Shown: one piece after another, positions 45,952 to 61,201 of the stretch
Layout of the letters: each line of letters starts with the position of its first letter
Numbering within the stretch: position 1 is the first letter of the stretch
NCBI RefSeq assembly: GCF_014196715.1
Contig: NZ_JACIEF010000002.1
Coordinates: forward strand, 124,001 to 188,000
DNA length: 64,000 nucleotides
Source: Pedobacter zeae
Lineage (GTDB): Bacteria > Bacteroidota > Bacteroidia > Sphingobacteriales > Sphingobacteriaceae
Direction: 5' to 3'
Translations under genes and position numbers: made by a program
The notes under the pieces: model-generated
What the model was told of the DNA's origin: nothing
What the model saw: the letters and a program-made list of their open reading frames with translations, nothing else
The model's database searches: none

Positions 45952-46431
45952 TTAAAATAAACGGTCAAACGCGATAATGTATTTTGCGGGCTGAAGTTCC
46001 GTGATTTCGTAATTTGCCCAATCATTTTTGTTTGAAATGGTCATCTTCCAAAATGCTTTTCAGTATAGTTTAGAAAAAATGTTCGCCAAAATGACCCGCC
46101 TGTTCTTCGAAAATAAAGGGGCAAATGTTGAATCTACCAACAGCGTTGGCAAGACATTTTTGCAATTTACATTTTTCAACGCAAATAAAAATGGCTTTTA
46201 CTGATTGAGATAGCATAGTGGAGAATAACTTTTGCTGGTGGTACTGGTTTATAATAATCATTAACGAACAGGTATTCCGGTGCAATTTGTCAATCAAATC
46301 TGCATCCGGTTTGGCCCGAAACGGGCTGATCCATTGCATTGAAATACACAGCTTATGTTATTGAACTATACGCTTAATAAGGCGAAATAAAATATTTTTA
46401 AATAAAAACTATAAAATCTATAGAAATTATA
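45952..46431. other. about 480-bp spacer before the SAM riboswitch
   Basis: No gene supported; one minus-strand frame at 46070-46339 lacks motifs. AT-rich, with the riboswitch promoter at its end. Confidence 0.35.
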
Positions 46432-46439
46432 TACATTTG
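46432..46439 (+). promoter_or_regulatory. -7 element upstream of the SAM riboswitch
   Basis: TACATTTG fits TAnnTTTG, and 20 nt later the riboswitch P1 stem begins, which is the right distance for a transcript starting near 46446. Confidence 0.5.
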
Positions 46440-46458
46440 TGCCATTAATATTTTTTGA

Positions 46459-46551
46459 CTTATCCAGAAAGACGGAGGGAAAGGCCCTATGATGTCTTAG
46501 CAACCTGTTGCCAAATAAGGTGCTAAATCCTTCCCGTAAGGGAAAGATAAG
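46459..46551 (+). promoter_or_regulatory. SAM-I (S-box) riboswitch
   Basis: The S-box layout is present: P1 closed by CTTATC (46459-46464) and GATAAG (46546-46551), the conserved AGACGGAGGGAAAGGCCC kink-turn region, GATG...TTAGCAACC, AAGGTGCTAAATCC, and the P4 hairpin TTCCCGTAAGGGAA. It binds S-adenosylmethionine and normally lowers expression when SAM is high. It lies 51 nt before the cysteine desulfurase gene. No terminator is obvious between P1 and the ATG, so translational control is more likely; that is inference. Confidence 0.92.
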
Positions 46552-46602
46552 AATAACTTTCTCCGGAAATCTGAATAAGCAGTGGTGATTTAAAATTGAA
46601 AG

Positions 46603-47757
46603 ATGAATATTTATTTAGATAATGCAGCTACCACCCCGCTTGCCAATGAGGTTTTTACAGCCATGAAACCCTTTATTTTTGAATCATTTGCTAACCCGTC
46701 TTCGGCACACGCTTTAGGCAGGTACGCCAGAGAAGCCGTTGAGCGATCGAGAAAAGTGATTGCAGATGCTTTACATACAGGACCTGGAAATATTTTCTTT
46801 ACTTCCGGCGGAACCGAAGGTGATAATACCGCCATACTTTCGGCTATTTATCATCATAATATCCGCCTGGTCATTACGTCAAGGTTAGAGCATTATGCCG
46901 TTTTGAATCCACTCAAATCCTTAGCTGAAAGAGGGCTGATCAGGCTGGTCTATCTGGAAAACGATAGCAAGGGGAAATTATCGCTCACCGAGCTGGATAC
47001 TTTGCTCGAAAACGGAGAACCAGCTCTCATATCCTTAATGCATGGTAACAACGAAATCGGAAATTTAAATCCTATTTTGGAAATTGCCGATCTTGCTGAG
47101 CATCATGGAGCCATCTTCCATTCAGATACGGTGCAAACCATTGGCCATATCGATATTAATACGCGGCAGCTGGCACCCGATTTTCTGGTGGGCTCGGCAC
47201 ATAAATTTCACGGGCCGAAAGGTGTTGGCTTTTTATACGCAAAAGAACCGGCTAATTTGCATGCTTTTATTAAGGGAGGGGCTCAGGAATCGGGAAAGCG
47301 GGCAGGTACCGAAAACGTAGCGGGTATTGTGGGGATGGCAGCCGCACTTCAGCATGCCTGTAATAACCAAAAACTTTACGAAACACATATCCAATCGCTC
47401 AAAAAAAGACTGCTCAACGGGCTTACAAACCTTGCAGGAGTAAGCTTTAATGGCTATTCAGATCATCCTGACAGAAGTTTACCCACCGTATTGAGTGTTT
47501 CCATACCTACGCTACCCGATGGCACCAATCTGCTGCAGACTTTAGACAGGGCCGGCATATTTGTTTCTGGCGGAAGTGCCTGTTCTTCCAATCATTCCTC
47601 GCACGTGATTGAAGCTTTGAGAAACGGTAAAAATGAAGAAACCATCAGGTTCTCTTTCAGCCGGTATAATACCGGGGCAGAAATAGATGAAGTGGTTGCG
47701 CAATTGAACAACCTTTACCGCAATCGCCGGGAACAGCCGAAACTGCGTTATGCTTAA
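46603..47757 (+). CDS. cysteine desulfurase (NifS/IscS-like), SAM-riboswitch controlled
   Basis: A 384-residue PLP enzyme that removes sulfur from cysteine as an enzyme-bound persulfide, leaving alanine. Visible: YLDNAATTPL start, TSGGTEGDN, LMHGNNEIGN, HSDTVQTIGH, PLP lysine K201 in SAHKFHGPKGVG, and the persulfide Cys327 in SGGSACSSNHSSHV. No IscU, SufE or Fe-S assembly gene is nearby, and it is preceded by a SAM riboswitch, so a role in sulfur scavenging is more likely than housekeeping Fe-S assembly. It shares the family with the gene at 57377-58531. TlpA follows 39 nt downstream. Confidence 0.93.
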   Translation: MNIYLDNAATTPLANEVFTAMKPFIFESFANPSSAHALGRYAREAVERSRKVIADALHTGPGNIFFTSGGTEGDNTAILSAIYHHNIRLVITSRLEHYAVLNPLKSLAERGLIRLVYLENDSKGKLSLTELDTLLENGEPALISLMHGNNEIGNLNPILEIADLAEHHGAIFHSDTVQTIGHIDINTRQLAPDFLVGSAHKFHGPKGVGFLYAKEPANLHAFIKGGAQESGKRAGTENVAGIVGMAAALQHACNNQKLYETHIQSLKKRLLNGLTNLAGVSFNGYSDHPDRSLPTVLSVSIPTLPDGTNLLQTLDRAGIFVSGGSACSSNHSSHVIEALRNGKNEETIRFSFSRYNTGAEIDEVVAQLNNLYRNRREQPKLRYA

Positions 47758-47796
47758 AAATAATTCCTAATCATACATCAATAAAATCAATCTGAA

Positions 47797-48924
47797 ATGA
47801 AAAAAACACTACTCGCTGCAGTTGCTGTACTGCCACTGGCTGCACTGGCACAAAAGCCATTCTCGTTAAACGGAACCCTAAAAAATGATAAAGGCAATGA
47901 GAAAATTTACCTCAGCTATTCGAAAGAAGGTAAAACGTTTTTAGACTCCACTGAATTAAAAAACGGCACTTTTGCTTTTAAAGGCGAAATAGGTGATCCG
48001 TTAAGGGCCTCGGTTTATAAAAAGCCGGCAGAGAAGAATGGGAAACGCGATTTCTTGTCCATTTACCTGGAACCTGCCAATATTCAGCTGGTATCGGCCG
48101 ATTCATTAAAAAATGCTTCCATCAGCGGGTCGAAAGTAAATGCCGATAATGAAAAACTTAAGGCTTTAACCAAGCCGGTTCAGGATAAACTGGCTGCAAT
48201 TAATAGCGAATTTGGTAAATTAACCGCCGAACAACGGAAAGACAAAGCCTTAACTGAAGCCATTTATAAACGCTATGAGACTGCCAGTAAAGAACTGGAG
48301 CCCATTTATATCGGTTTTGCCCGTTCAAACCCGCAATCTTACGTCAGCTTATCAGCCATCTCCCAGATCGCAACCAGCGAATCTGCCCAGCCTGAAGCAG
48401 AAAAGGCTTACGCAGCTTTAAGCCAGGACCTTAAAGACAGCAAATCGGGCAGAGATATTTCAACCTATTTCAACGCCGTAAAAAATACCAAAATAGGCCT
48501 TCGGGCGATAGATTTTACACAAAATGATGTGAATGACAAACCTGTAAAATTATCTGATTTTAAAGGTAAATATGTTCTGGTCGATTTCTGGGCATCGTGG
48601 TGTGGTCCGTGCAGACAGGAAAACCCTAATGTAGTGGCTGCCTATAACCAATATAAAGACAAAGGTTTTACTGTTTTAGGGGTTTCTCTGGATCAGCCTG
48701 GTAAAAAAGAAGCCTGGTTAAAAGCCATTGCCGACGATCAGTTAGCCTGGACACACGTTTCTGATTTAAAATTCTGGGATAATGCCGTAGCCAAACAATA
48801 TGGTATCCGTTCCATTCCGGCAAATTTCCTGATTGATCCAAACGGAAAAATTGTTGCCAAAGGACTCAGGGGGGAGGCTTTAAAAGAAAAACTGGCTTCG
48901 TTACTTGATGCTAAAACCAAATAA
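47797..48924 (+). CDS. TlpA-like thiol:disulfide oxidoreductase
   Basis: A 375-residue periplasmic protein with signal peptide MKKTLLAAVAVLPLAALAQ. The first ~200 residues are a DUF4369-like beta domain plus helical linker (FSLNGTLKNDKGNEKIYLSYS), the last ~140 a thioredoxin fold with active site FWASWCGPCRQENP and cis-Pro region IRSIPANFLIDPNGKI. It reduces disulfides in the periplasm. Located between the desulfurase and SusC; it could reduce imported cystine-like substrates. The periplasmic electron supply may be the DsbD pair at 59-61 kb. Confidence 0.93.
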   Translation: MKKTLLAAVAVLPLAALAQKPFSLNGTLKNDKGNEKIYLSYSKEGKTFLDSTELKNGTFAFKGEIGDPLRASVYKKPAEKNGKRDFLSIYLEPANIQLVSADSLKNASISGSKVNADNEKLKALTKPVQDKLAAINSEFGKLTAEQRKDKALTEAIYKRYETASKELEPIYIGFARSNPQSYVSLSAISQIATSESAQPEAEKAYAALSQDLKDSKSGRDISTYFNAVKNTKIGLRAIDFTQNDVNDKPVKLSDFKGKYVLVDFWASWCGPCRQENPNVVAAYNQYKDKGFTVLGVSLDQPGKKEAWLKAIADDQLAWTHVSDLKFWDNAVAKQYGIRSIPANFLIDPNGKIVAKGLRGEALKEKLASLLDAKTK

Positions 48925-49316
48925 TCACATTTAATAAAATTTAGAAAAAACAGGGGCAAAAATGACAACCAGCTTTTGCGCAATTGCGTAAAAGTTTACC
49001 GGATAAAAAACAGGGGCGATTGAGGCCGCCCCTGAATAAGTGATCGATCACGGTATGTGACTACTAATGCTGAATTAATATTTAACCACTTAAAATCTAA
49101 TATAATGAAAATATCCTAATTATTTAGTTGCTCCTGCAACTTATTAGCGAAACTATGTGCCCAATCATTGGCAACATGCGCTAGATCTATTTATGCCACT
49201 GCATTTTTTTTGACATATTTTAAGGTTAAAGGTTTAACCAAACGTGTTAAAACCGGCTTTGGCGAATACATAAATGCCGTTTGGCATCACTAATCATATT
49301 AATCTTCATAAATGAA
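48925..49316. other. 392-bp spacer inside the sulfur locus
   Basis: Between tlpA and susC. It contains a perfect 8-bp stem CAGGGGCG / CGCCCCTG (49011-49018, 49027-49034) without a T tract, and the 13-bp repeat AAAAAACAGGGGC near 48944 and 49004. No ORF. Whether the SAM-controlled transcript crosses this gap is open. Confidence 0.45.
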
Positions 49317-52307
49317 ATGAAACGAAAAATACTTTCGCTTGTTATACTATGCCTTGTCGTAACCTTTCCGGTATTTTCACAAAATAAAGTGATTACCGGA
49401 AAAGTTGTAGCAGCAGAAGATGGTCTTCCCATCCCCGCTGTATCTATCCGGATTCCGGGAACAAAAGCCGGGACACAAACTGACGCAAATGGTAACTATT
49501 CCATCGCTCTTCCGCCATCTGCCAGATCAATCGAATTCAGCTTTCTGGGCTTCATTACTGTCCGCGAAACGATCAATGCCAGAAGGGTAATCAACATCTC
49601 TTTAAAATCAGACGCAACGGGTTTGGATGAAGTGGTGGTAACCGGATTTGGGCAAACCACAAAAAAAAGGGATATTACCGGAGCTGTATCGAGTATTTCT
49701 TCAAAAGAAATTGAAAAAGTGCCCCTGGTAAGCTTCGACAGGGCCATGCAAGGTACGTTGCCTGGCGTGCGCGTAAATACCAATTCAGGTACACCTGGTT
49801 CGTCGGTAAGTGTTTTAATCCGTGGTACGGGTTCATTTAATGCCAGCACGGCTCCATTATATATTGTTGATGGTATCCAGGTTAACTCAGGCGATTTAAC
49901 CCGAAGCTTATCCACGTCCAATATTCTCAGTAACCTTAACCCTGATGATATTGAAACCATCGATGTGTTAAAAGATGCTTCGTCAGCGTCCATTTATGGC
50001 TCGCAAGCCGCAAATGGTGTGGTTATTATTACTACCAAACGGGGTAAAGCGGGTAGGACCGAATTCGATTTCAGCAGCTATTTTGGTTATGCCGAAGAGG
50101 TAGATCGTTTAGATGTATTAAACGGACCGGAATGGTTATCGGTTTATACCGAAGAAAACGTTAACCGTTATGGTGCCAACAGTTCGCAGGTTGTGGGTAC
50201 CTCAGGCGTTAAAACTGTTTTTGGCGCAGATCCGGCCGCAGCCCCAACCTATAGCTGGTACGATGCTGCATACCGTAAAGGCCATACCCAAAACTATCAG
50301 CTTACCGCCCGGGGAGGCGATGCCAAAACCAAATTTTATATCTCGGCAGGTTTATTTGACCAAAAAGGTCAGCAAATACAACAGGATTTTAAAAGGGGTA
50401 CATTTAAAACCAATCTCGAGCATCATGTAAACAACAAGCTTTCGCTCGAAGCCAATATCAACTTAAGTACCTTTACCCAGAACGGTACACTCAGCGGTTC
50501 TACATTTGCTAATCCATCATTTGGGGCCAATTTCCTTATTCCTACCCAGGCGGTTTACACAGCCAGCGGAGATTATAATGAGCCCCTGCTCGGGGCGGTA
50601 GCCACTAACCCCATCAAATCGGCTAATTACGATATCAATAAAGGTACCACTAACCAGCTGCAGGGGATTTTTGCTTTAAATTATAAGATTATCGATGACC
50701 TCAAATTCAGGGTTACCGGTTCGATAGATTATGGCGATATCAAAGAAGACCGTTTCCAGGATCCGAGAACCAGGGATGGGGCGGCACCCAATGGCCGTTA
50801 TACCTTTCTCGATACCGAGTTTAAAAATTATCAAACCAATGCCACATTAAACTACAGCCATTTATTTGGCGCCAAACATAAAGTTTCCGGTCTGGTAGGT
50901 TTCGAGTATCGCCACCAGGTTAATAATACCGTTACCACCCAAAAAACCGGCTTCCCTAACTATTTATTCCGGACCCTGAACGGAGGTACTGTTCTGGCAT
51001 CTATATCATCGGGCTTTACCGAGTTTAAAAATCTGGGTTATTTTGCAAGGGGCGAATATGCTTTTGACGATAAGTATATTGTTAACGGAACCATCCGTTA
51101 CGACGGAAACTCCCGCTTTGGCGAAAATCGGAAATTCGGGCTCTTTGGTTCGGGTTCATTAACCTGGAGACTGTCGAGAGAAAATTTCCTGAAAGAGGTG
51201 AGATGGCTTAGCGACTGGAAAATCAGAACCAGCTACGGAAAAGTGGGTAACTCTGGTATTGGTAATTTTGCCTCCCTTTCTACCTTTGGTTCCAACTCCG
51301 GTTACAACGGGATCGGTGGTATTTCGCCCGGCGGTTTACCTAATGTGGAGCTGACCTGGGAAGATAGTTACACCCTTAATTTAGGAACTGATGTTTCGTT
51401 ATTTAACAACCGGTTGAGTTTTACAGCAGAATTCTATAATAAACTGAATAAAAACCTGCTCTTAACCCGCACATTGCCCAGTACAAGTGGTTACAGCGGG
51501 GTAAGTGATAATGCCGGCAAAATGCAGAACCGGGGTTTCGAATTCCAGCTCAACTCCCAAAATTTAACCGGAAAATTTAAATGGAATACCTCATTCAATA
51601 TTTCCTACAATAAAAATAAAGTTCTTCAGCTCATTACGGATGATCTTGACCCGAGGTTCCAATTGGTTGGAAATTCGGTAAGCAGGGTTTTATCTTACCA
51701 GTATGCCGGGGTGAATCCGGCTGATGGAAGGCCACTTTGGTTAGATGCCAATAATAACCTTACCTATAACTTAACGGCTAACGACAGGAGGATAATCGGA
51801 GATACCCAGCAGAAATATTTTGGTGGTTTTACCAATAACTTTTCTTACGAGGGTATTGGCCTCGATATTTTCTTCCAGTATGCTACCGGTTTCTTACTGT
51901 TCGATCAGAACAAAAACTTCCTTGATAGTTATGCCAATGCATCGAACCGCAGTACTGATGTATTTAGAAGATGGACAAGCCCCGGGCAGATTACTGATGT
52001 TCCGCAGGCCTATACAGGAGGTAATTATGTGAGTGGCGGAGTGGCTTCGAGTGCTTACAGCACCTCCTCAACACAGTGGTATAAACCCGGCGATTACCTC
52101 AGGTTAAAAGAGGTAAGGTTATCTTACCAACTGCCTAAAGCTTTAATTACTAAAGCCAGGTTAAATAATGTACTGCTTTATGCAACCGGAACCAATCTGT
52201 TAACCTGGACCAAGTATACCGGTATTGATCCTGAAACGGTATTATCTGATAATGGAGGTGTACCGCAGGCAAGAACCTATACCCTTGGCTTCCAAATTGG
52301 ACTGTAA
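49317..52307 (+). CDS. SusC-family TonB-dependent transporter of the sulfur locus
   Basis: A 996-residue SusC (ATG 49317; the in-frame TTG at 49281 is upstream of the signal peptide MKRKILSLVILCLVVTFPVFSQ). Domains as in the family: ITGKVVAAEDGLPIPAVSIRIPG, LDEVVVTGFGQTTKKR, IRGTGSFNASTAPLYIVDG, VLKDASSASIYGSQAANGVVIITTKRG, barrel to TLGFQIGL. It is about 90 residues shorter than the two other SusC here, the range often seen for transporters of small or peptide-like substrates. SusD follows at 11 nt. The substrate is inferred, from context only, to be a sulfur compound. Confidence 0.93.
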   Translation: MKRKILSLVILCLVVTFPVFSQNKVITGKVVAAEDGLPIPAVSIRIPGTKAGTQTDANGNYSIALPPSARSIEFSFLGFITVRETINARRVINISLKSDATGLDEVVVTGFGQTTKKRDITGAVSSISSKEIEKVPLVSFDRAMQGTLPGVRVNTNSGTPGSSVSVLIRGTGSFNASTAPLYIVDGIQVNSGDLTRSLSTSNILSNLNPDDIETIDVLKDASSASIYGSQAANGVVIITTKRGKAGRTEFDFSSYFGYAEEVDRLDVLNGPEWLSVYTEENVNRYGANSSQVVGTSGVKTVFGADPAAAPTYSWYDAAYRKGHTQNYQLTARGGDAKTKFYISAGLFDQKGQQIQQDFKRGTFKTNLEHHVNNKLSLEANINLSTFTQNGTLSGSTFANPSFGANFLIPTQAVYTASGDYNEPLLGAVATNPIKSANYDINKGTTNQLQGIFALNYKIIDDLKFRVTGSIDYGDIKEDRFQDPRTRDGAAPNGRYTFLDTEFKNYQTNATLNYSHLFGAKHKVSGLVGFEYRHQVNNTVTTQKTGFPNYLFRTLNGGTVLASISSGFTEFKNLGYFARGEYAFDDKYIVNGTIRYDGNSRFGENRKFGLFGSGSLTWRLSRENFLKEVRWLSDWKIRTSYGKVGNSGIGNFASLSTFGSNSGYNGIGGISPGGLPNVELTWEDSYTLNLGTDVSLFNNRLSFTAEFYNKLNKNLLLTRTLPSTSGYSGVSDNAGKMQNRGFEFQLNSQNLTGKFKWNTSFNISYNKNKVLQLITDDLDPRFQLVGNSVSRVLSYQYAGVNPADGRPLWLDANNNLTYNLTANDRRIIGDTQQKYFGGFTNNFSYEGIGLDIFFQYATGFLLFDQNKNFLDSYANASNRSTDVFRRWTSPGQITDVPQAYTGGNYVSGGVASSAYSTSSTQWYKPGDYLRLKEVRLSYQLPKALITKARLNNVLLYATGTNLLTWTKYTGIDPETVLSDNGGVPQARTYTLGFQIGL

Positions 52308-52318
52308 AAAATATCAAA

Positions 52319-53767
52319 ATGAAAACATACATATATATATTTATCTTCTTAACACTTTTGGGGTTTTCGGGTTGTAAAAAAACGCTCGAAACTGCTCCGA
52401 AAGATTCCATAGCCTCATCGCAGGCGCTAACCAATTTAACCGGTGTAAGCAGTTTACTCAATACCGTTTACAGTAACCTAAGGGGAACCGGTTATTATGG
52501 GCAGTCGTTTAAAATTAATCCGGATATTATGGCCGACAACATTTATCCGATTCCGGGGCTTAATTCCAATCGCCTGATCACCAATTCGATAAATGCACCG
52601 GGTGCCCACATGAGCCTGTGGGGCTTATATACCTCGGGCATTAATCAGGCAAACCTGGTGATCCAGGCAGTGGGCAATGTTGCCGGGAGCCAGGCAGACA
52701 AGAATAAAATTTTAGGTCAGGCTTATGGCCTCCGGGCCTTGTTTTACTGGGACCTGGTAAAACTTTACGGTTATAACCCTCAATTTATTGTTAACGGATT
52801 TAACAAAGGGGTTCCGCTGGTTTTAAAACCTACGGCAACATTGGCCGATGTAGCTTTTCCGGCCAGGAACACAGTTGAAGAAGTTTATAAACAGGTCGAA
52901 ACCGATCTTTTGGCGGCAGAAAACCTGCTCGATAATTCGGCAGGAAACCGTTACGTAACCAAAACCGTGGCTCAGGCTATTTTATCAAAAGTTTATTTAT
53001 ACTGGGGTAAATATACCGAATCTGCAACTTATGCCGATAAGGCTATTGCTGCGGCAGGCTCTACTTTTGTTACGGGGGCAGCTTATACTTCGAGCTTTTA
53101 TGCCGACAATAATCCGGAGGCTATATTCAATATTGTAATCACTTCAGAACAATCGAACATTAACGAATCTTTACAATCGTACTATGCCCAGTTTCCGGCC
53201 GATTACAGTAAACGCCAGGATCAGGCAGCTTTTGATAACAATAGCGAACCGAAAGTGGGTTACGGCGATTTTACACCAACACCTGAGTTGCTGGCTTTAT
53301 ACGAAAATGACGATGTAAGAAGGGGAACCATTACTACAGGGAAGAAAAGTAATGTAACTGTTAATTATGTACGTAAATGGGTACCCACCAATGGCGTTAA
53401 TTTTTTGCAGAATATTCCGTTGTTACGGATTTCGGAGTTATACCTCATCCGGGCAGAAGCGAATTTCAGGGCGGGCACCGCTATAGGTGCAACTGCACAG
53501 AGCGATTTGGATAAAATCCGCAACAGGGCAGGTTTAACCAGTGTGCCGGTTTCGATCGCTGCAATTTTAAAAGAACGTAGAATTGAACTTGCTTTTGAAG
53601 GCGACCGCTGGTTTGATCTGGTGCGGCTTGGTCTCGATGTGCCCAAATCGAGCGCATTAGGTTCAATTGCACCCATCGCCTACAATACCGATTACCGGAT
53701 CCTTGCGCCAATACCACAATCAGACCTAAGCGTTAACCCAAATCTTATTAAAAATCCAGGTTATTAA
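52319..53767 (+). CDS. SusD-family lipoprotein of the sulfur locus
   Basis: A 482-residue lipoprotein with lipobox LGFSGC then KKTL. SusD blocks: ASSQALTNLTGVSSLLNTVYSNLR, ILGQAYGLRALFYWDLVKLYGYNP, VAQAILSKVYLYWGKYTESATYADKAI, LLRISELYLIRAEANFRAG, ILKERRIELAFEGDRWFDLVRLG, RILAPIPQSDLSVNPNLIKNPGY. It binds substrate at the cell surface for the preceding SusC. A small lipoprotein gene follows 14 nt downstream. Confidence 0.94.
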   Translation: MKTYIYIFIFLTLLGFSGCKKTLETAPKDSIASSQALTNLTGVSSLLNTVYSNLRGTGYYGQSFKINPDIMADNIYPIPGLNSNRLITNSINAPGAHMSLWGLYTSGINQANLVIQAVGNVAGSQADKNKILGQAYGLRALFYWDLVKLYGYNPQFIVNGFNKGVPLVLKPTATLADVAFPARNTVEEVYKQVETDLLAAENLLDNSAGNRYVTKTVAQAILSKVYLYWGKYTESATYADKAIAAAGSTFVTGAAYTSSFYADNNPEAIFNIVITSEQSNINESLQSYYAQFPADYSKRQDQAAFDNNSEPKVGYGDFTPTPELLALYENDDVRRGTITTGKKSNVTVNYVRKWVPTNGVNFLQNIPLLRISELYLIRAEANFRAGTAIGATAQSDLDKIRNRAGLTSVPVSIAAILKERRIELAFEGDRWFDLVRLGLDVPKSSALGSIAPIAYNTDYRILAPIPQSDLSVNPNLIKNPGY

Positions 53768-53781
53768 AAACGATTATCAAT

Positions 53782-54210
53782 ATGAAAAGAATACAAGTTC
53801 CGGCCATTTTAATGCTGCTTTTTCTGTTTAGCTGCAAGAAATACCGGGTTGAATACGATCAGCCTTCGCAGGTAGAATTTAAGCCCATTACCGCCACCCT
53901 GGCAAAAGGAACAGTGGCTGCTCCTGGCAGTGTAACCATCCTGGTGCAGTTGGTTGGGCCGCAAAGGGATGCCGATGTAAATGTAGAGTATGTAGTAGAT
54001 CCGGCCAGTACGGCTGTTTCAGGTACCCATTATACCACATCCGGTGCGGCCGGGAAAATTACCATACCGGCCCACAGCAGTTCGGCCCAGATTGTGCTCA
54101 CGGCAATTCCGGCTAACCTGACAATAGCTAAAAAGTTAATATTAACGCTTAAAGACGGCGCTTTACCGGTAAGTCCAAATTATAAAACTTCTACTATAAC
54201 GCTTCAATAA
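53782..54210 (+). CDS. small DUF4843/calx-beta-like surface lipoprotein
   Basis: 142 residues; lipobox LFLFSC then KKYRV. The mature part is an immunoglobulin-like beta sandwich with GSVTILVQLVGPQRDADVNVEYVVDPASTAVSGTHYTT and IPAHSSSAQIVLTAIP, the pattern of DUF4843/calx-beta proteins that follow susCD genes. It probably joins the SusCD complex at the surface. A hairpin follows. Confidence 0.75.
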   Translation: MKRIQVPAILMLLFLFSCKKYRVEYDQPSQVEFKPITATLAKGTVAAPGSVTILVQLVGPQRDADVNVEYVVDPASTAVSGTHYTTSGAAGKITIPAHSSSAQIVLTAIPANLTIAKKLILTLKDGALPVSPNYKTSTITLQ

Positions 54211-54216
54211 CTATAT

Positions 54217-54244
54217 GCCGGCAGCAGGCAATGTTGCCGGCTTT
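54217..54244 (+). terminator. terminator after the sulfur-locus susCD operon
   Basis: GCCGGCA / TGCCGGC stem with a short weak T tract (CTTTAT). Confidence 0.55.
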
Positions 54245-54626
54245 ATAATTTGCCTCATGAAAAGAGTTTAAAGGCTATTCTCTTAATTTTAATTAACATG
54301 TGTGATTGCACGATCATGCTCTTTGCCCAACTGTACAGGATATAAATGGCAAAGGGATATCAGGTGAAAAGTGATAATCGGAATTGCCTGCACGGCATTC
54401 CTGTTCACTGGGTTTTCAATAGGAGTTAGTCTATCAGGACTATGGATATAATAGCTTTATCTGTCGATTAATTTTCGTATTTTGTTTGTTTTTCTGGTTT
54501 ATTTTTTTGTTATTGAAAAGAATGTCGATTTTATTTCAGCAGTATTTTCAGTTTGCTGAATTATTTTTATTTTTAAAGAATTAAATCTGGTAGTATGCAC
54601 TACCTCCGGAACCAAGGCTAACTTAT
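54245..54626. other. about 380-bp spacer before the Lrp/AsnC regulator
   Basis: No gene. AT-rich in the last 150 bp where the regulator's promoter should lie; a TATTTTG box near 54477 is one base short of consensus. Confidence 0.35.
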
Positions 54627-55100
54627 ATGAACGAAACGATCAGGGATCTTGACCCTACAGACCAGGAGATTTTGAGGATTCTTCAGCATGATGCATCCAT
54701 CACGCATAAACAGCTCTCCGATAAGCTTCATAAATCGATAGCCACCATTCACGAGCGTATCCGCAAGTTAAAGAACCTGGGCTATATCCTTAAAACTGTT
54801 GCCATTCTCGACAGAAAAAAGATCAACCGTAATTTAATAGCCTTCAGCCAGGTACTGCTGAACGATCATACCGCCGAAACCCTTAAAGGTTTCGAGGATG
54901 CGGTGGCCAAATACCCCGAAGTGATGGAATGTTTTCAGATGACCGGCTCCTTTGACTTCGTTCTTCGTGTAGCAACCAGCGACATGGAAGCTTATCACGA
55001 CTTCTATCGCAACAAGCTGGCCATTTTACCGAATATTACAACGGTGCAAAGTTTTTTTGTGCTTTCTGAGACGAAGAGCGAAACAGCGTACCCGATTTAA
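54627..55100 (+). CDS. Lrp/AsnC-family regulator
   Basis: A 157-residue regulator: winged HTH at the N-terminus (LDPTDQEILRILQHDASITHKQLSDKLHKSIATIHERIRKLKNLGYI) and the RAM/AsnC ligand domain (MECFQMTGSFDFVLRVATSDMEAYHDFYRNKLA). Lrp/AsnC proteins sense amino acids; some, such as E. coli DecR, sense cysteine and control its degradation. Between two divergently organised sulfur operons it is the obvious candidate regulator for both. Ligand is inference. Confidence 0.9.
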   Translation: MNETIRDLDPTDQEILRILQHDASITHKQLSDKLHKSIATIHERIRKLKNLGYILKTVAILDRKKINRNLIAFSQVLLNDHTAETLKGFEDAVAKYPEVMECFQMTGSFDFVLRVATSDMEAYHDFYRNKLAILPNITTVQSFFVLSETKSETAYPI

Positions 55101-55160
55101 ACTTTTAAACCCATTTCTGGTTTTGAGGGATAGAGTCCTCAATAAGGCAGGCATATTACC

Positions 55161-56555
55161 TTATTGGGACACCGCTGCAGCGTCGTCTTTTGGAATGGCC
55201 GCAAAGCCACCTCGCACATTGATCAGGTTAAATATTCCGAGGCTTCTGAGAATTGAAATAAACATCATCGATCTGTAACCGCCGGCACAGTAAACCAAAT
55301 GAACTTTTTCCTTGTCAATTCTTTCTGCTGATCGATAAACCTGGTCTAATGGGAGCAATACGGCATCCCTTACATGGCCAAGTTCATATTCTGATGGCTT
55401 TCTTACATCGATGAGGCCCATGTTTTTTTCAGCTACATAAGCAGGGAGTTGATCACCATCCACCTCTTTGATCAGGCATACCTCATGCCCCTGATTAATC
55501 CACTCATCTATACCCCCTTCTAGGTATCCGCTAACCTGGTGAAAACCTACCCTGGCCAGTCTTTTAACAACTTCGGCTTCTTTACCTGGTTCGGCTAAAA
55601 AGATGATTTCCCGTTGCGATAGCTGCAGCAGTTCTCCGGCCCATGGGGCAAAATTTCCATTTAACCCAATATTAATGGCACCAGATATATGTCCGGCGGC
55701 GTAAGCAGAGGGCATTCGTGTATCCAGTATTAGTGTTCCCATTCTACGGCTTCGTTCCAAAAACGCTGCAGGATTCATGGCGCGCAGCCCTGTATCCATT
55801 AAATGATCAAGATTAGGGTATCCGGATGCATTGATCTTTACATTTTCGGGAAAATAAGCCGGAGGATTGTCAAGTCCTTCGCAGAGCAGGTTTATAAACT
55901 CTTCCCTTGAAAGTTGGGTATTGAGCGCGTAATTGTCTGTTTTCTGTGCTGCAAGCGTTCCGGAGGTTTCCTTGCTCATGTTCTTTCCACAGGCACTTCC
56001 GGCCCCATGTCCGGGATATACGATAGTTTCGCCGGGTATGGGCAGGATTTTCTCCCTGAGGGAATCGTAAAGCTTTCCTGCAAGATCTTGGCTGCTAATC
56101 TGCTTATCGGAAGATTGCGCAAGGTCAGGACGGCCAACATCTCCTAAAAAGAGTGTATCTCCGGTAAACAGGGCAAGTTCTTTTTGATCAGAATCCCTGA
56201 GCAGAAGGCATACGCTTTCAAGGGTATGCCCGGGAGTATGTAAGAGTTCGATACTCGCTGAACCGATTTTAAAGATCTCGCCATCTTTCGCACTGTAAGA
56301 ATCGAACTCCGTATTTGCTCCCGGGCCAAACACAATCTCTGCTCCGGTTTTTCTGGCCAGTTCGAGGTGGCCGCTTATAAAATCTGCATGGAAATGGGTT
56401 TCAAAGATGTAGCTGATCCTGGCCTGGTTTTTCTCTGCCAGATCGAGGTACTGCTGGATATCCCGGAGCGGGTCAACAATAACCGCTATGCCATTATCTT
56501 CGATGTAATACGATGCCTGCGAAAGGCATTTCTCATAAAATTGCTCAATTTTCAT
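55161..56555 (-). CDS. CstB-like persulfide dioxygenase-rhodanese fusion
   Basis: 464 residues from ATG 56555, which fits MKIEQFYEKCLSQASYYIED; the upstream start at 56606 lies within tauE. Order: ETHE1-type metallo-beta-lactamase domain with THFHADFISGH, HTPGHTLESV and TGDTLFLGDVGRPDL; a pseudo-rhodanese with no Cys in its loop (IIFLAEPGKE); an active rhodanese with VYCAGGYRS (Cys at about 423). This is the three-domain layout of Staphylococcus CstB, which oxidises persulfide and makes thiosulfate. Last gene of an operon behind desulfurase and TauE. Cytoplasmic: no signal peptide. Confidence 0.88.
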   Translation of the reverse strand: MKIEQFYEKCLSQASYYIEDNGIAVIVDPLRDIQQYLDLAEKNQARISYIFETHFHADFISGHLELARKTGAEIVFGPGANTEFDSYSAKDGEIFKIGSASIELLHTPGHTLESVCLLLRDSDQKELALFTGDTLFLGDVGRPDLAQSSDKQISSQDLAGKLYDSLREKILPIPGETIVYPGHGAGSACGKNMSKETSGTLAAQKTDNYALNTQLSREEFINLLCEGLDNPPAYFPENVKINASGYPNLDHLMDTGLRAMNPAAFLERSRRMGTLILDTRMPSAYAAGHISGAINIGLNGNFAPWAGELLQLSQREIIFLAEPGKEAEVVKRLARVGFHQVSGYLEGGIDEWINQGHEVCLIKEVDGDQLPAYVAEKNMGLIDVRKPSEYELGHVRDAVLLPLDQVYRSAERIDKEKVHLVYCAGGYRSMMFISILRSLGIFNLINVRGGFAAIPKDDAAAVSQ

Positions 56556-56571
56556 TTTTTTCTTTAGTATG

Positions 56572-57375
56572 TTAACCCATCCCGAAAAGTTTAATAAACT
56601 GCCCAAGGAGAATCATAAAACCTAAAAACATAACCGTCCATCCAAATATTTTCTTTAAGGATGCAGCGTTTACTTTTTTCGCAAGCAGGTTTCCAACAAA
56701 GCTGCCGGCGATGGCGATCATTGAAAATATGATCAGCATCTGCCAGTTCACTTCTGCCTGAGAGGCTTCCAGCCCAAATCCGATGAGCGTATTGATGGTA
56801 ATGATCAGCAGGGAAGTCCCAACGGCTTTTTTAATGTCAATACCCAGGTAAAGCGTTAGTGCCGGTATCACTAAAAAACCACCACCTACGCCCAAAAAAC
56901 CGGTAATCATGCCTGTAACGGCGGCACAAAGCGTTAACCGGAATGTAGCCGCATCCGGATTGCTGATCCTGGTGCTTTTTTGTTGCTCCAGGATCATCTG
57001 GTTCGACGCCCAGATCATTATTACAGCAAAAACAACCATGCTTAGCCACTCATACCTTATCGTACAGGCGCCCAGGTGCCCAAGCACTGTGGGCATATGT
57101 GGCTGGATTAAAATTTTAACCAGGTAGATAGCCAGGCCCGAAATTAGCGAGAAAGGTAAGGCAATAGCCGGCAATACTTCTTTCGCTGCCCATTTCGGGC
57201 CGGTTGAAATAAAGCTGCAGGCACCAACCACAAACATGGCATGTCGCTGGGCAACAAAAGGACTTAACGAGAAAAAGTACACCAGTACAGGAACCGTTAG
57301 GATACTGCCGCCTGCACCGATCATGCCCAATGATACCCCTATTATGGCCATGAGAAAGTAGCCAGCTATTTCCAT
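56572..57375 (-). CDS. TauE/SafE-family sulfite or sulfonate exporter
   Basis: 267 residues from ATG 57375, one base after the desulfurase stop; the longer start at 57438 adds a non-membrane tail inside the upstream gene. About eight TM helices in two repeats, each with the Gly-rich signature: LGMIGAGGSILTVPVLVYFF and TGFLGVGGGFLVIPALTLYL. The family moves sulfite, sulfoacetate and similar anions; next to a CstB-like protein and a desulfurase, sulfite or thiosulfate export is expected. Confidence 0.88.
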   Translation of the reverse strand: MEIAGYFLMAIIGVSLGMIGAGGSILTVPVLVYFFSLSPFVAQRHAMFVVGACSFISTGPKWAAKEVLPAIALPFSLISGLAIYLVKILIQPHMPTVLGHLGACTIRYEWLSMVVFAVIMIWASNQMILEQQKSTRISNPDAATFRLTLCAAVTGMITGFLGVGGGFLVIPALTLYLGIDIKKAVGTSLLIITINTLIGFGLEASQAEVNWQMLIIFSMIAIAGSFVGNLLAKKVNAASLKKIFGWTVMFLGFMILLGQFIKLFGMG

Positions 57376-57376
57376 C

Positions 57377-58531
57377 TTAGGCCACCGGTACTGTTGACTG
57401 GAAAATGGCCGATAAGGCCCTAACTGCCTCGTCAACATCGGTAGCGCTGGTCAGCTTGCTAAATGAGAACCTGACTGTTGACCCCGATGACGATAGCCCA
57501 AGGGCATTGATCACATGTGAGCCGCCATCACTTCCGCTGCTGCATGCACTGCCTCCCGATGCACAGATTCCGGCCCGGTCGAGGTGAGCCAGTAAAAGAC
57601 TTCCTGGCATCGCATTTAGGAAGTTTACACTCAAAACTGTATATAGGCCATCGATAGGACTGTTAAAGCTAACGTCCGGAATGCTCTGGCTAAGGGCATT
57701 TCTCATCAACTCGTTTAACGAACGGATATAGGTGCTCTCCTCCGGGTGATTTCTCATACTCAGCTCCAGCGCTTTCCCAAAACCTACAATTCCGGCCACA
57801 TTCTCTGTTCCGGCCCTTGATTGACGTTCTTGTCCGCCACCTATGATTAATGGGGATAATTTTACCCGTTCTGAAGCATACAAAATGCCGGTACCTTTAG
57901 GTCCATGAAACTTATGGCCCGAAGCTGAAGCAAAATGCAGTTTGTATTTTTTGAGGTCCATCTCTAAATGGCCGATGGTCTGAACACAGTCGGAGTGGAA
58001 GATTGCATTGTATTTTTCACAGAGATTACCTACTTTTTCGATATCCAGCAATACGCCTATTTCGTTATTGGCATGCATAAGGGAAACCAGGCATTTGATC
58101 CCTTCCTTATTTTTCTCGATGAGTTTATCTTCCAGCTCCTGCAAGTTCAGAAAACCTTGTGTGGAGGGAGTTAGAATGGTGCAATCAATAGCACTTCTTT
58201 CACAATAACGCTTTACCGTATTGAGTACTGCATGGTGCTCTATTGAGGAGGTGATGATATGCTTGCAACCCAGTTCGTTAACCGCGCATGCAATAGCTGT
58301 GTTGTTACTTTCAGTACCTCCGCTGGTAAAATAGATATTCAGGGGGCTTACGCCCAACGCAAGGGCAACCGATTTTCGGTTTGCCTCTATTGCGGCCTTA
58401 GCCTCTCTGCCCAGCGCATAAGAAGAAGACGGATTACCATAATGCTCAGTGAGGTAAGGTAACATTGCCGAAAGAACTTCAGCGTCCAGTGCTGTTGTGG
58501 CTGCATTGTCCAGATAGATGTATTTTTTCAT
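57377..58531 (-). CDS. second cysteine desulfurase (NifS/IscS-like)
   Basis: 384 residues. YLDNAATTALDAEVL, TSGGTESNNTAIA, LMHANNEIGV, HSDCVQTIGH, PLP lysine K207 in SASGHKFHGPKGTG and persulfide Cys330 in ASGGSACSSGSDGGSHV. It is the same length as the desulfurase at 46603-47757 and a clear paralogue, in an operon with TauE and CstB-like genes. Likely makes persulfide from cysteine that the downstream fusion oxidises. Confidence 0.93.
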   Translation of the reverse strand: MKKYIYLDNAATTALDAEVLSAMLPYLTEHYGNPSSSYALGREAKAAIEANRKSVALALGVSPLNIYFTSGGTESNNTAIACAVNELGCKHIITSSIEHHAVLNTVKRYCERSAIDCTILTPSTQGFLNLQELEDKLIEKNKEGIKCLVSLMHANNEIGVLLDIEKVGNLCEKYNAIFHSDCVQTIGHLEMDLKKYKLHFASASGHKFHGPKGTGILYASERVKLSPLIIGGGQERQSRAGTENVAGIVGFGKALELSMRNHPEESTYIRSLNELMRNALSQSIPDVSFNSPIDGLYTVLSVNFLNAMPGSLLLAHLDRAGICASGGSACSSGSDGGSHVINALGLSSSGSTVRFSFSKLTSATDVDEAVRALSAIFQSTVPVA

Positions 58532-58800
58532 TTATTTCGAATTATAAGTAGTAGAACCAAAATATTTATTACAAAAATCGCTGATAACCGTATATCCTTC
58601 AAGCATTCCTGAAAAATCCATATTTTTTACGTATTTGTGTGTTTTTTTTTATTTTATTCGTTGTCATTTTGGTTATATGCGCATCAGAACCCGTAATTTT
58701 TCTGGATGTTAAACCGGCTGTCGTTCCTAACCAATCCCGGGATAGTGGCAGAACTTTTTTCTGAGGTGCCCAACTCAGAATTTTATTTAAATGGTAAACA

Positions 58801-58828
58801 AAACGGGCAGTATAACTACCGCCCGTTT
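58801..58828 (-). terminator. minus-strand terminator
   Basis: AAACGGGC / GCCCGTTT perfect stem; on the minus strand it is followed by TTTTGTTT. It ends the transcript reading down from DsbD and a small ORF just before it. Confidence 0.6.
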
Positions 58829-58837
58829 AGCTATTAA

Positions 58838-58921
58838 CTAAAACTGAAGACCAGCTTTATCTCCTTCAATGTTGTCCTCTTTCGATTCATTAAAGTATTC
58901 GAGAGAAGTTGCTACAGGCAT
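58838..58921 (-). CDS. 27-residue small ORF with strong Shine-Dalgarno
   Basis: Reads MPVATSLEYFNESKEDNIEG and seven more residues ending GLQF. AGGAG lies five bases before the ATG (58927-58931) and a terminator starts ten bases after the stop. Acidic peptide of no known family. The frame directly upstream (to about 59030) also looks coding-like (LYQGTHNYPGIVLGFKALLR), so the whole may instead be the tail of a decayed outer-membrane protein gene. The remaining gaps in 58532-59099 show nothing. Confidence 0.3.
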   Translation of the reverse strand: MPVATSLEYFNESKEDNIEGDKAGLQF

Positions 58922-59099
58922 GTTCTCTCCTCAATAATGCTTTGAAACCAAGAACAATACCTGGATAGTTATGCGTTCCCTGGTAGAGGACTTTCAAAGA
59001 ATTTAATTGCTGGCCTGAAAAAGGTGCTTGCCATCCGGCGTAAGCCCTCTTACATCACTAACTAATTTTACGGGCTTCTATCCCCTCCGTAAAATGATT

Positions 59100-60743
59100 T
59101 TATTTATAAGCGGCAAGCCCTGCCGCCAGAAATTTCCGGTAATTGGCCGCATCGTAGTCTGCTCCCTGTGGAGCAACTAGTTTTTCTTCGGTATTAGGAT
59201 CGAGTATCACATAAAATGGTTGTGAGTTGGATGCGAATTTTCTCGCCTGAAGATCACTCCATTTCTTTCCGATCGTGCTCAGCGTTTTGCCTTCAGGGGT
59301 TATTACTTTGTCTTCCGGTGAGAGTTCCGATTTATCATCTACGTACAACTGGATGATTACATAATCCTCATTTAACAGCTGATACACCTGTTTATCCGGC
59401 CATACATTTGCTTCCATTTTTCTGCAGTTTACACAGGCATGTCCTGTAAAATCGATTAACACCGGTTTGTTCTGCTGTTTCGCGGCAGCAAGCCCCTCGG
59501 CATAATCGAAATAAACATTAAGCTTTAGCGGTGCATGAAATTTATCTGCATATTTATGGGGTTTACTATCTGAATGCTGATTGCCGGTATGGCCCACCAG
59601 CGCATTTGTATATAAATCAAAATCCTGGGTTTCCTGGGGAGGGAGAAATGCAGATACCGATTTTAGCGGAGCACCCCACATTCCCGGAATAAGGTATATG
59701 GTGAAGGCCAGTACAATTGTGGCAAGGAACACTCTCGGTACCGATAGATAAGCCAACGGGCTATCGTGCGAAAAACGAAGCTTTCCGAGTAAATAAAATC
59801 CCATAAGACCAAAGATGACAATCCACAATGAAAGGAATAATTCCCTGTCGAACCACTCCCAGTGATAAGCCAGATCCACATTACTTAAGAATTTTAAAGC
59901 AAAAGCCAGTTCAAGCAATCCGAGAACCACTTTTACACTGTTAAGCCAACCGCCCGATTTCGGGAGTTTGTTCATGGCTGAAGGAAACAGTGCAAATAGG
60001 GCAAAGGGAATGGCCAATGCCAGAGAGAAACCGAACATGCCCACCGCTGGCCCTAATAAGGCTCCTGTGGTTGCAGCCTGGACCAAAAGTGTTCCGATGA
60101 TCGGTCCGGTGCAGGAAAAGGAAACCAATGCCAATGTTCCGGCCATAAAAAATAAGCCTGAAATACCGCCCCTGTCTGAATTGGCATCCATCTTATTTAC
60201 CCATGATGAGGGGAGGGTAATTTCAAATGCACCGAGGAACGAAGCGGCAAATACAACCAGTAACAAAAAGAACATAAAGTTAAATATTCCATTGGTTGAT
60301 AAATTGTTCAGTGCATCTGCACCAAAAATTACCGTAATAATCAGCCCCAGGATCACATAAATGAGGATGATGAACAGGCCGTAAAGGGATGCCCGCTGGA
60401 AGGCCCTTCCTTTTTCGGATCCTTTAGTGAAAAAGCTTACCGTGAGGGGCAGCATAGGGAAGATACACGGCATCAGTAACGCTGCAAGCCCGCCAATAAA
60501 ACCTGCTGCAAATATTCCCATCAATGTGGTATCATCCTTTGGTACGGGGGTAGTTTTAACACTGCCCTTTTCTTTTTGTGGTTGTTGAATAGCTGATACC
60601 GCAGTCGTGTCGCTTACCTGGCTATCGGGTTTAATTTCAGTGAAAACCAGATCGTCAGCCGCTGTGCTATCCTGGCTGTGGGACTGAAAACCCAAAAGGA
60701 GAAACAGAAGCAGGGCAGGAAGAATTTTTCTCAGGTTGTTCAT
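59100..60743 (-). CDS. DsbD-type transmembrane thiol reductant conductor
   Basis: A 547-residue inner-membrane protein. Signal peptide 1-23; a short linker in place of the usual N-terminal immunoglobulin-like domain; eight TM helices from about 75 to 360 with the two transmembrane cysteines in MPCIFPMLP and FSCTGPIIG; C-terminal thioredoxin domain with GHACVNCRKMEA. It passes electrons from cytoplasmic thioredoxin to periplasmic partners. The missing N-domain is encoded separately 8 nt upstream. Confidence 0.93.
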   Translation of the reverse strand: MNNLRKILPALLLFLLLGFQSHSQDSTAADDLVFTEIKPDSQVSDTTAVSAIQQPQKEKGSVKTTPVPKDDTTLMGIFAAGFIGGLAALLMPCIFPMLPLTVSFFTKGSEKGRAFQRASLYGLFIILIYVILGLIITVIFGADALNNLSTNGIFNFMFFLLLVVFAASFLGAFEITLPSSWVNKMDANSDRGGISGLFFMAGTLALVSFSCTGPIIGTLLVQAATTGALLGPAVGMFGFSLALAIPFALFALFPSAMNKLPKSGGWLNSVKVVLGLLELAFALKFLSNVDLAYHWEWFDRELFLSLWIVIFGLMGFYLLGKLRFSHDSPLAYLSVPRVFLATIVLAFTIYLIPGMWGAPLKSVSAFLPPQETQDFDLYTNALVGHTGNQHSDSKPHKYADKFHAPLKLNVYFDYAEGLAAAKQQNKPVLIDFTGHACVNCRKMEANVWPDKQVYQLLNEDYVIIQLYVDDKSELSPEDKVITPEGKTLSTIGKKWSDLQARKFASNSQPFYVILDPNTEEKLVAPQGADYDAANYRKFLAAGLAAYK

Positions 60744-60751
60744 TTCTGCGT

Positions 60752-61201
60752 TTATTTAACTGGAACATTAAACTCAACCTCGTCCGGTGGAAGGCATTGG
60801 GTATCATTACAGACCATGAATTCTACTTTGCCCTTTACAGTGGTTGACTTTCCCTTTAACTTTATTTTTTGCTGAAAAATGGCACTTTGTTCAAAAAAGC
60901 TCACATCCATCTTAAATGTCGGCTCGTGCCTGGTTACCGGTTTAGGCTCAGTTGTTTTGCCGATAAGGCTATAACCCGGAGCGGGATTGAACGTAAAGGT
61001 GGTTTTTACCGGCCCGCCTTCTTTTACAAATTGGGAGTAAAGGTGCCAGCCTTTATCAATCGTTGCCTTCATATAAATAATGGCCTCACTGGCATTGATG
61101 CGTTTTGCGGCATAACTCCAGGTAACAGGTTTCATAATCTGCCCAAAACTATTAATGCTGATCAATAGTACTGTGGCTAAGGTTAACAAGGTTTTTTTCA
61201 T
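60752..61201 (-). CDS. stand-alone DsbD N-terminal domain protein
   Basis: 149 residues; signal peptide MKKTLLTLATVLLISINSFG. Immunoglobulin-like domain with WHLYSQFVKEGGPV and the redox pair in VCNDTQCLPP (Cys about 131 and 136), equivalent to the two cysteines of nDsbD. It would accept electrons from the membrane protein encoded next and give them to periplasmic targets, TlpA at 47.8 kb being an obvious candidate. Operon with DsbD. Confidence 0.88.
   Translation of the reverse strand: MKKTLLTLATVLLISINSFGQIMKPVTWSYAAKRINASEAIIYMKATIDKGWHLYSQFVKEGGPVKTTFTFNPAPGYSLIGKTTEPKPVTRHEPTFKMDVSFFEQSAIFQQKIKLKGKSTTVKGKVEFMVCNDTQCLPPDEVEFNVPVK

Follow-up and report, generated by a model that had tools for sequence, protein, structure and literature searches.

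Two adjoining gene units, one behind a SAM riboswitch

The window, i.e., the whole 64,000-nucleotide stretch of Pedobacter zeae DNA analyzed here, holds between positions 46432 and 61201 a set of sulfur- and thiol-related genes that is split into two units, not one. All elements listed for this interval by a first-pass annotation were recovered in Rfam covariance model, Pfam, and NCBIfam searches. Unit 1 (46457-54210, forward strand) comprises a SAM-I (S-box) riboswitch, a NifS/IscS-like cysteine desulfurase (D1), TlpA, SusC, SusD, and a small lipoprotein, while unit 2 (54627-61201) contains an Lrp/AsnC regulator, a CstB-like protein, a TauE/SafE-family exporter, a second NifS/IscS-like desulfurase (D2), DsbD, and a separate DsbD N-terminal domain protein (DsbD-N).

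Unit 1 is preceded by the promoter-like TAnnTTTG box TACATTTG (46432..46439, forward strand), a pattern which we take to be the Bacteroidota -7 box; TACATTTG or TATATTTG was found in seven of seven aligned leaders. The box lies 5′ of a full-length RF00162 aptamer (46457..46553; 78.9 bits versus a gathering threshold of 44.4), the 3′ end of which is located 49 nt before the start codon of D1. D1 (46603..47757), the first gene after the riboswitch, encodes a PF00266 protein (245.3 bits) with the active-site loop GSACSS at residue 324 and matches solved desulfurases (down to 1.8e-69), but it scores below the NCBIfam equivalog cut-offs of TIGR03402 (356.2 versus 530.75 bits) and TIGR02006 (245.2 versus 643.2 bits). 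Since IscS itself is encoded elsewhere in the genome (locus L217) and exceeds its own cut-off, D1 is an extra paralogue, and a role as the housekeeping desulfurase was rejected. D1 is followed by a periplasmic thiol-disulfide oxidoreductase of DUF4369-TlpA architecture (47797..48924; PF14289 and PF00578, WCGPC at residue 268) and, after a gap of 392 nt, by the TonB-dependent importer SusC1 (49317..52307), which scores 823.7 bits against the TIGR04056 cut-off of 368.25 and contains Plug and CarbopepD_reg_2 domains. The gap carries two hairpins (48971..49034; folding z-score -3.89) without a T-run 3′ of them; the stem of the second is identical in three genomes and that of the first carries substitutions. 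The adjoining SusD1 lipoprotein (52319..53767; PF07980, 105.6 versus 23.1 bits; PF14322; Cys19 after the signal peptide) completes a SusCD pair, referred to as SusCD1. The last gene (53782..54210) encodes a lipoprotein with a cysteine after its signal peptide and a weak likeness to DUF4843 (PF16132, 20.0 bits, below the cut-off of 34.5).

In unit 2, the Lrp/AsnC gene (54627..55100; PF01037, PF13412) is on the forward strand, and the remaining genes are on the reverse strand: the CstB-like protein (55161..56555; PF00753 and two PF00581 stretches), TauE (56572..57375; PF01925, 113.1 bits versus a cut-off of 32.6), D2 (57377..58531; PF00266), DsbD with its membrane and thioredoxin domains (59100..60743; PF02683, PF13899), and DsbD-N (60752..61201; PF11412). 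Likely start codons, each followed by an open frame, are 49317 for SusC and, on the reverse strand, 57375 for TauE and 56555 for CstB. The CstB-like protein matches 3tp9 (residues 2-453) and 3r2u (residues 3-453) over nearly its full length. Its metallo-β-lactamase (MBL) domain, resembling persulfide dioxygenases, is followed by a first rhodanese domain devoid of cysteine (residues 266-354) and a second one harboring Cys423. This corresponds to what we take to be the CstB architecture, namely MBL, pseudo-rhodanese, and active rhodanese, and persulfide dioxygenase activity is predicted.

Recurrence of the riboswitch, the desulfurases, and SusCD pairs

D1 and D2 are 46% identical. A covariance model search placed a SAM riboswitch directly 5′ of the desulfurase in 16 of 80 D1-related loci, in 12 of which neither TlpA nor SusC adjoins D1. 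In a desulfurase tree built from frames with a DNAAT motif and within set length ranges, all 23 riboswitch-linked rows, two pairs of which represent the same genes entered twice (L014/L165 and L015/L166), fall inside one 27-row clade (support 96/99), and D2 forms its own clade of six rows (support 100/100). L072 and L088 are long branches of unsure placement; the tree omits three of the 80 loci (L066, L067, and L070) as well as the short frame at L181 and a 51% match of G075. SusD1 orthologues (95% identical) occur in two of 200 other family genomes, and unit 1, including the small lipoprotein, is collinear in two relatives in which the immediate flanks differ.

The genome contains six SAM riboswitches, which precede, among others, MetY-MetX-Hom, MetH-MetF, D1-TlpA-SusCD1, and a second, different SusCD pair (SusC2-SusD2, here SusCD2). 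SusCD2 orthologues were found in 41 of 201 family genomes, with a SAM riboswitch upstream in 38 of the 41, a TlpA-type gene either within the operon or transcribed divergently from it in 30, and a D1-type gene (in one case a short frame) between riboswitch and SusC2 in five; the other 36 loci lack D1 in the operon. In Segetibacter, a member of another family, both loci read have the order D1-SusC2-SusD2-TlpA. The riboswitch model gave no match at four SusCD2 loci outside the family, nor at the two Segetibacter loci. Riboswitch, desulfurase, and TlpA recur together with SusCD, the gene order varies, and SusCD pairs of two distinct types are involved. Of the 201 family genomes, 177 carry PAPS-reductase-family genes, among them every one of the 41 that have SusCD2; scavenging is therefore no replacement for sulfate assimilation, and the idea of SusCD as a substitute for a missing pathway was rejected. 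In a sample of the class (80 genomes, this one included; 69 of the 75 matches from other genomes read, i.e., all except those of G229, G258, G201, G237, G267, and G248:C32), a methionine gene lies behind 64 of 69 SAM riboswitches and a SusCD pair behind one.

As a control, 20 stretches of the same genome were hand-picked from its 55 PF07980 matches. No TlpA-type gene and no desulfurase occurs within 3 kb of any of the 21 SusC genes in these stretches, a count that refers to one genome and to PF07980, the SusD1 type, whereas the SusD2 type is PF12771. Neighbors were matched more loosely here, at E 1e-6 or by a CxxC pattern, compared with an earlier baseline (E 1e-8), and no riboswitch-model match below E 0.47 was obtained in the 20 stretches. 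The earlier baseline (nine other SusC genes, two with TlpA and two with a desulfurase within 3 kb; TlpA near 28 of 39 SusC2 copies) was set aside because desulfurase or SusCD2 had served to select its loci. Together with the recurrence described above, the control supports the first-pass proposal that SusCD is tied to sulfur and thiol metabolism rather than to glycans, and a sulfur role for unit 1 gains weight from the comparison.

Alternative readings and a proposed mechanism

The same annotation had joined both units in a single system leading from import through reduction, desulfuration, and persulfide oxidation to sulfite export. All of the genes do adjoin in this genome, and yet this part of the interpretation is unsupported and highly improbable: a near relative is collinear up to 54254 and again from 61758, with 54255-61757, and hence unit 2, missing in between. 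D2 recurs elsewhere with TauE, CstB, DsbD, or Lrp without an adjoining SusCD, and the riboswitch model has no match at unit 2 or at five other D2 loci. A single super-locus was rejected on these grounds; in related genomes the full gene set does not co-occur, which was the refuting outcome named by the first-pass annotation, but its left half does. TauE adjoins D2 in five of six D2 loci and Lrp in three. Lrp was placed in unit 2; among three SusCD1 loci read, it stands beside SusCD in this genome only, and it adjoins unit-2 genes in G162 (72%) and G197 (80%). Unit 2 is a separate sulfur-handling cassette that adjoins unit 1 in this genome, and it probably serves the disposal of excess cysteine sulfur through persulfide.

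For unit 1, an ordinary glycan-utilization SusCD that by chance lies downstream of a sulfur operon would agree with the long TlpA-SusC gap, with the resemblance of the SusD2 model to chitin- and glucan-binding SusD proteins, and with a GH127 β-L-arabinofuranosidase-like gene (61757-63661, reverse strand) 555 nt past the end of the interval. This explanation is very improbable, since unit 1 lacks a glycoside hydrolase and stays intact while its immediate flanks change, and since a riboswitch of this kind also precedes a different SusCD pair in 38 of its 41 genomes. Carbohydrate-active enzymes in the operon, the criterion for a polysaccharide utilization locus, were not found by Pfam among the genes of 46432-61201, so that the first-pass statement to this effect is true within this interval, GH127 being the next gene beyond. 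Comparison of the SusD folds does not separate glycans from peptides. SusD1 matches RagB at 2.4e-8 and SusD homologues such as 3kez better (2.2e-40), its predicted model (mean pLDDT 46.5) being too poor for substrate inference; SusD2 matches BT2263 at 2.3e-30 but 5j5u (7.8e-47) and glycan binders better, and the folds nearest to its model (mean pLDDT 71.6) are chitin- and glucan-binding SusD proteins, with BT2263 ranking lower. Deriving the substrate from structure was accordingly set aside. Import of methionine or methionine-rich peptides, with D1 and TlpA as regulon neighbors doing other jobs, is what one would normally expect of a transporter under a SAM riboswitch and fits both the many SusCD2 operons without D1 and the methionine genes behind most riboswitches of the class. 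We consider it a serious but less likely rival, as it leaves the recurrence of a desulfurase and a thiol-disulfide enzyme, absent around the control SusC genes, unexplained. That linkage is equally unaccounted for if what the SusCD pairs take up is no sulfur compound but a cofactor or methyl donor needed to make methionine (corrinoid, folate, betaine). MetH lies behind a SAM riboswitch here, and btuB belongs to the MetJ core regulon of Proteobacteria according to the excerpted text of PMC4239095; however, the loci for corrinoid transport in gut Bacteroidetes are described as regulated by B12 riboswitches (PMC6143338, as excerpted), and cofactor import appears improbable.

The reading that we favor on balance is a SAM-repressed sulfur-scavenging operon beside a separate sulfur cassette. 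The class of the riboswitch and the desulfurase neighbor suggest an importer that takes up sulfur compounds under methionine shortage. To judge from the riboswitch family, SAM binding would repress the downstream genes, so that low SAM would permit expression of D1 and TlpA and, assuming co-transcription across the 392-nt gap, probably of SusC, SusD, and the lipoprotein as well. SusCD would then carry a nutrient containing sulfur across the outer membrane, the likeliest candidates being a cysteine-type thiol or disulfide or a peptide; the first-pass annotation had proposed cystine, a glutathione-like compound, or a cysteine peptide. In the periplasm, TlpA may hold this nutrient, or its importer, in the reduced state. 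D1 would free sulfur from cysteine for MetY to form homocysteine, from which MetH/MetF would yield methionine and SAM, both enzyme sets being encoded behind SAM riboswitches. Counted against scavenging are the frequent separation of D1 and SusCD, the SusCD2 loci outside the family and in Segetibacter at which the riboswitch model had no match, the likeness of SusD2 to glycan-binding folds, the PAPS-reductase-family genes in all SusCD2 genomes, and the gap with stable hairpins between TlpA and SusC. Moreover, a cystathionine γ-synthase-like enzyme above its cut-off is encoded in the genome, so that D1 is not the sole possible link from cysteine to methionine. More tentatively, these pairs might represent an undescribed SusCD class, recruited at least twice and induced through SAM riboswitches for organic sulfur uptake, that is coupled to a dedicated desulfurase clade feeding the direct sulfhydrylation of O-acetylhomoserine rather than the classical transsulfuration route.

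Relation to known systems and implications

Among the open-licence PMC papers searched, none was found in which a SAM riboswitch occurs together with SusC and SusD, and the excerpt of a periodontitis metatranscriptome paper naming SAM riboswitch, Bacteroidetes, and TonB contains no SusCD link. With the SusCD/RagAB importers (BT2261-2264, RagAB), unit 1 shares the SusC plug and carboxypeptidase-like domains and the SusD lipoprotein; it differs in its SAM riboswitch, desulfurase, and TlpA and in an operon without hydrolase or peptidase domain. SAM-I methionine regulons are likewise marked by RF00162, as before the methionine operons of this genome, whereas here the aptamer also stands before SusCD and a cysteine desulfurase. 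The BtuB/BtuG loci of Bacteroides, as described in the excerpt of PMC6143338, also pair a riboswitch-controlled TonB-dependent importer with a surface lipoprotein and serve the uptake of a nutrient other than sugar, but riboswitch, importer family, and nutrient all differ. A cysteine desulfurase in a methionine regulon has a parallel in csd, which is predicted to be controlled by MetJ in Vibrionales (PMC4239095); that system employs a protein repressor in Proteobacteria, and SusCD is not mentioned in the excerpted text. Unit 2 resembles CstB/TauE persulfide detoxification systems in its MBL and two rhodanese domains and its TauE-family exporter, to which it adds a desulfurase, Lrp, and DsbD/DsbD-N. 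The cst operons presumably have a CstR-type repressor, and none is among the genes annotated at unit 2.

Bacteroidota genomes contain dozens of SusCD pairs, mostly without a known substrate and presumed to be glycan importers. A SAM riboswitch constitutes a readable label of nutrient class and would thus mark some of these pairs as sulfur or methionine importers, which provides a rule for finding further ones. The recurring riboswitch-desulfurase unit points to a SAM-controlled sulfur route from cysteine to methionine in the Sphingobacteriaceae.

Two adjoining units at the locus

In the 5.4-Mb genome of P. zeae, whose contig C2 contains the window, a SAM-I riboswitch (46457-46553, forward strand; RF00162) is followed on the same strand by genes for a cysteine desulfurase (D1), a DUF4369-TlpA protein, SusC, SusD, a small lipoprotein, and an Lrp regulator. 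Genes for a CstB-like protein, TauE, a second desulfurase (D2), DsbD, and a separate DsbD N-domain (DsbD-N) lie on the reverse strand. The first-pass annotation, which had proposed a single sulfur locus, was correct in its gene content: the riboswitch and all genes it named were recovered by riboswitch and protein-domain matches. By D1 identity, the nearest named loci belong to a Sphingobacteriaceae MAG (91%; L014/L165, genome G179) and to Pedobacter ghigonis (88%; L015/L166, G194). In blastn comparisons, the MAG is 89.9% identical and collinear across 46284-54254, carries different genes after 54254, and regains collinearity from 61758, at a GH127 beta-L-arabinofuranosidase-like gene directly past DsbD-N (61757-63661, reverse strand). 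P. ghigonis is collinear with 46386-54425, beyond which only a short SusC repeat aligns within the stretches read. Riboswitch-to-lipoprotein (unit 1, 46457-54210) therefore constitutes one block, and Lrp-to-DsbD-N (unit 2, 54627-61201) a separate piece.

Orthologues of D2 (at least 58% identity) occur in 6 of 201 Sphingobacteriaceae genomes (that of the window, G161, G140, G197, G167, and G162) and form a clade with support 100/100 in a 94-row desulfurase tree. TauE adjoins D2 in five of these six loci, CstB is next in line in four, DsbD adjoins D2 or lies within ~7 kb in four, and Lrp is part of the gene run in three; in G140, an Lrp-type frame (44%) is found ~4 kb from D2. The order in G162, from another genus, is DsbD-N, a 173-aa gene, DsbD, D2, TauE, CstB, Lrp. 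Close to three further matches at 51% (G143, G075, G002), none of TauE, CstB, and Lrp has a match; the tree places two of the three outside the D2 clade and does not include the other. None of the five non-window D2 loci has an adjoining SusCD, and the riboswitch model finds no match at them. Since CstB-like genes are widespread (104/201 family genomes) and D2 lies beside few of them (3 of 20 neighbourhoods read), D2 is the distinctive part of unit 2. Judging from the protein families, D2 would generate a persulfide from cysteine, CstB would oxidize it, and a sulfur oxyanion would leave through TauE, with DsbD providing periplasmic reductant and Lrp sensing amino acids. Around a second CstB-like gene of P. 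zeae (G000:C3:73806-75161; L317), the 14 kb read contain neither a TauE match nor a desulfurase match.

The riboswitch-linked desulfurase D1

Among 80 loci retrieved with D1, the riboswitch directly precedes the desulfurase gene in 16 (L014-L028 and L034). SusC shares the run with D1 in L014, L015, and L034, the last cut by a contig end and bearing a cysteine-synthase-like PALP gene ahead of the riboswitch; TlpA alone stands beside D1 in L016. In the other 12 of 16, neither TlpA nor SusC adjoins D1, and in L018 and L023 SusCD lies ~2 kb away with other genes between. All 23 riboswitch-linked rows of the tree fall into one 27-row clade (support 96/99), completed by two Segetibacter rows, Arcicella L072, and Larkinella L088. 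D1 is therefore a dedicated paralogue, with IscS encoded elsewhere in the genome. That D1 also follows SAM riboswitches where SusCD is lacking suggests a role in supplying methionine synthesis with sulfur freed from cysteine. Vibrionales provide a parallel, csd being predicted there to be under MetJ control (PMC4239095). Larkinella L088 also encodes a pair of TlpA-type proteins (425-431 aa), each located near a SusC. Desulfurases close to those of Bacteroidota are encoded on contigs that bear the labels Bifidobacterium breve and Thalassobius (L067, L064); these contigs may be binning errors.

SusCD pairs behind SAM riboswitches

Rfam identifies six SAM riboswitches in the P. zeae genome. They precede MetY-MetX-Hom, MetH-MetF (MetY identified by NCBIfam, the other four recognized from translations), D1-TlpA-SusCD1 (the window pair), SusC2-SusD2, and a DUF4833 gene; the sixth, weaker and on the opposite strand, lies ~840 nt from the DUF4833 site with no clear gene downstream. 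Since SusC2-SusD2 follows its riboswitch directly, a second SusCD stands behind a switch of this kind, and SusD2 (PF12771) belongs to a different Pfam family from SusD1. The DUF4833 gene and riboswitch sites are at L008:15367-15948 (reverse strand) and L009:1170-1267 (G000:C2:920232-921266); DUF4833 also adjoins D2-TauE in L328, and by eye a similar-looking protein follows a riboswitch-MetE-like gene in L247.

SusCD1 is rare, being found at E 1e-90 in 3/201 family genomes (P. zeae, G179, G194). Paralogous matches at 43-45% number two, one each in the own genome and G052, and neither is accompanied by a match to the riboswitch, D1, or TlpA. SusD2 matches (E 1e-90 or better) occur in 41/201 family genomes, P. 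zeae included, and in 7 of 25 genera. Each of the 41 neighbourhoods was read, and riboswitches were sought there with a covariance model derived from 11 RF00162 matches, Rfam itself having been applied to the own genome, the window, seven loci, and the class sample rather than to these 41. A same-strand riboswitch lies upstream in 38; the model finds none at L148, L160, and L162. The commonest layout (19/41) is riboswitch-SusC2-SusD2 with a divergent TlpA-type gene, followed by riboswitch-TlpA-SusC2-SusD2 (7), riboswitch-SusC2-SusD2 alone (4), riboswitch-D1-SusC2-SusD2 (4, including L181 with a 156-aa D1 frame), riboswitch-SusC2-SusD2-TlpA (3), and riboswitch-D1-TlpA-SusC2-SusD2 (1). The divergent TlpA-type protein (L007:17589-18857 and relatives) has ~420 aa, is transcribed away from riboswitch-SusCD2, and has no Pfam family match in its N-terminal part. 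In a class-wide sample, SusD2 was found in 9/295 genomes; the four of these outside the family lack a riboswitch match, and in one (L174) a TlpA-type gene precedes SusC2. Two Segetibacter loci (Chitinophagaceae) have the order D1-SusC2-SusD2-TlpA, likewise with no riboswitch match. As controls, 20 own-genome stretches were picked from 55 SusD (PF07980) matches: none of the 21 examinable SusC genes has a TlpA-type/CxxC protein or desulfurase within 3 kb, and the best riboswitch-model match is no better than E 0.47.

Cargo and distribution of the riboswitch-linked SusCD

That these SusCD pairs are SAM-controlled and related to sulfur or methionine is very probable; that they import a cysteine-type compound is a more tentative proposal, slightly short of even chances. 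Several points weaken the proposed mechanism: SusCD and D1 are often apart, every one of the 41 SusCD2 genomes has PAPS-reductase-family genes, and the P. zeae genome also encodes a cystathionine gamma-synthase-like enzyme. The fold neighbours of the predicted SusD2 model are headed by glycan binders; the SusD1 model was unusable. TlpA and SusC1 are separated by a 392-nt gap holding two stable hairpins (48971-49034, z -3.89), so that a shared transcript is only putative. Neither hairpin has a T-run, the second stem is identical in three genomes, and together they may split the operon, as a site of processing or attenuation. In Bacteroides, riboswitch-controlled import of a non-sugar nutrient, B12, is known (PMC6143338).

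The component parts of the locus are of known kinds; in a search of open-licence PMC papers, none was found joining SAM riboswitches to SusC/SusD. In a sample of 80 genomes of the class Bacteroidia (P. zeae included), 58 have a SAM riboswitch match. Outside the own genome there are 75 such matches, and the stretches around 69 of them were read. For 64, BLAST matches MetH, MetY, MetX, MetF, or Hom within the stretch; one (L247) has a MetE-like frame, recognized by eye, first behind it, and three (L192, L244, L268) are without clear assignment. The remaining one (L259, G257:C24:9499-9595), from another family, lies 502 nt upstream of a SusCD whose SusC is 32% identical to SusC1, possibly an independent case. 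With 1 of 69 riboswitches before a SusCD, the class as a whole does not share the arrangement, which is an extension concentrated in Sphingobacteriaceae.
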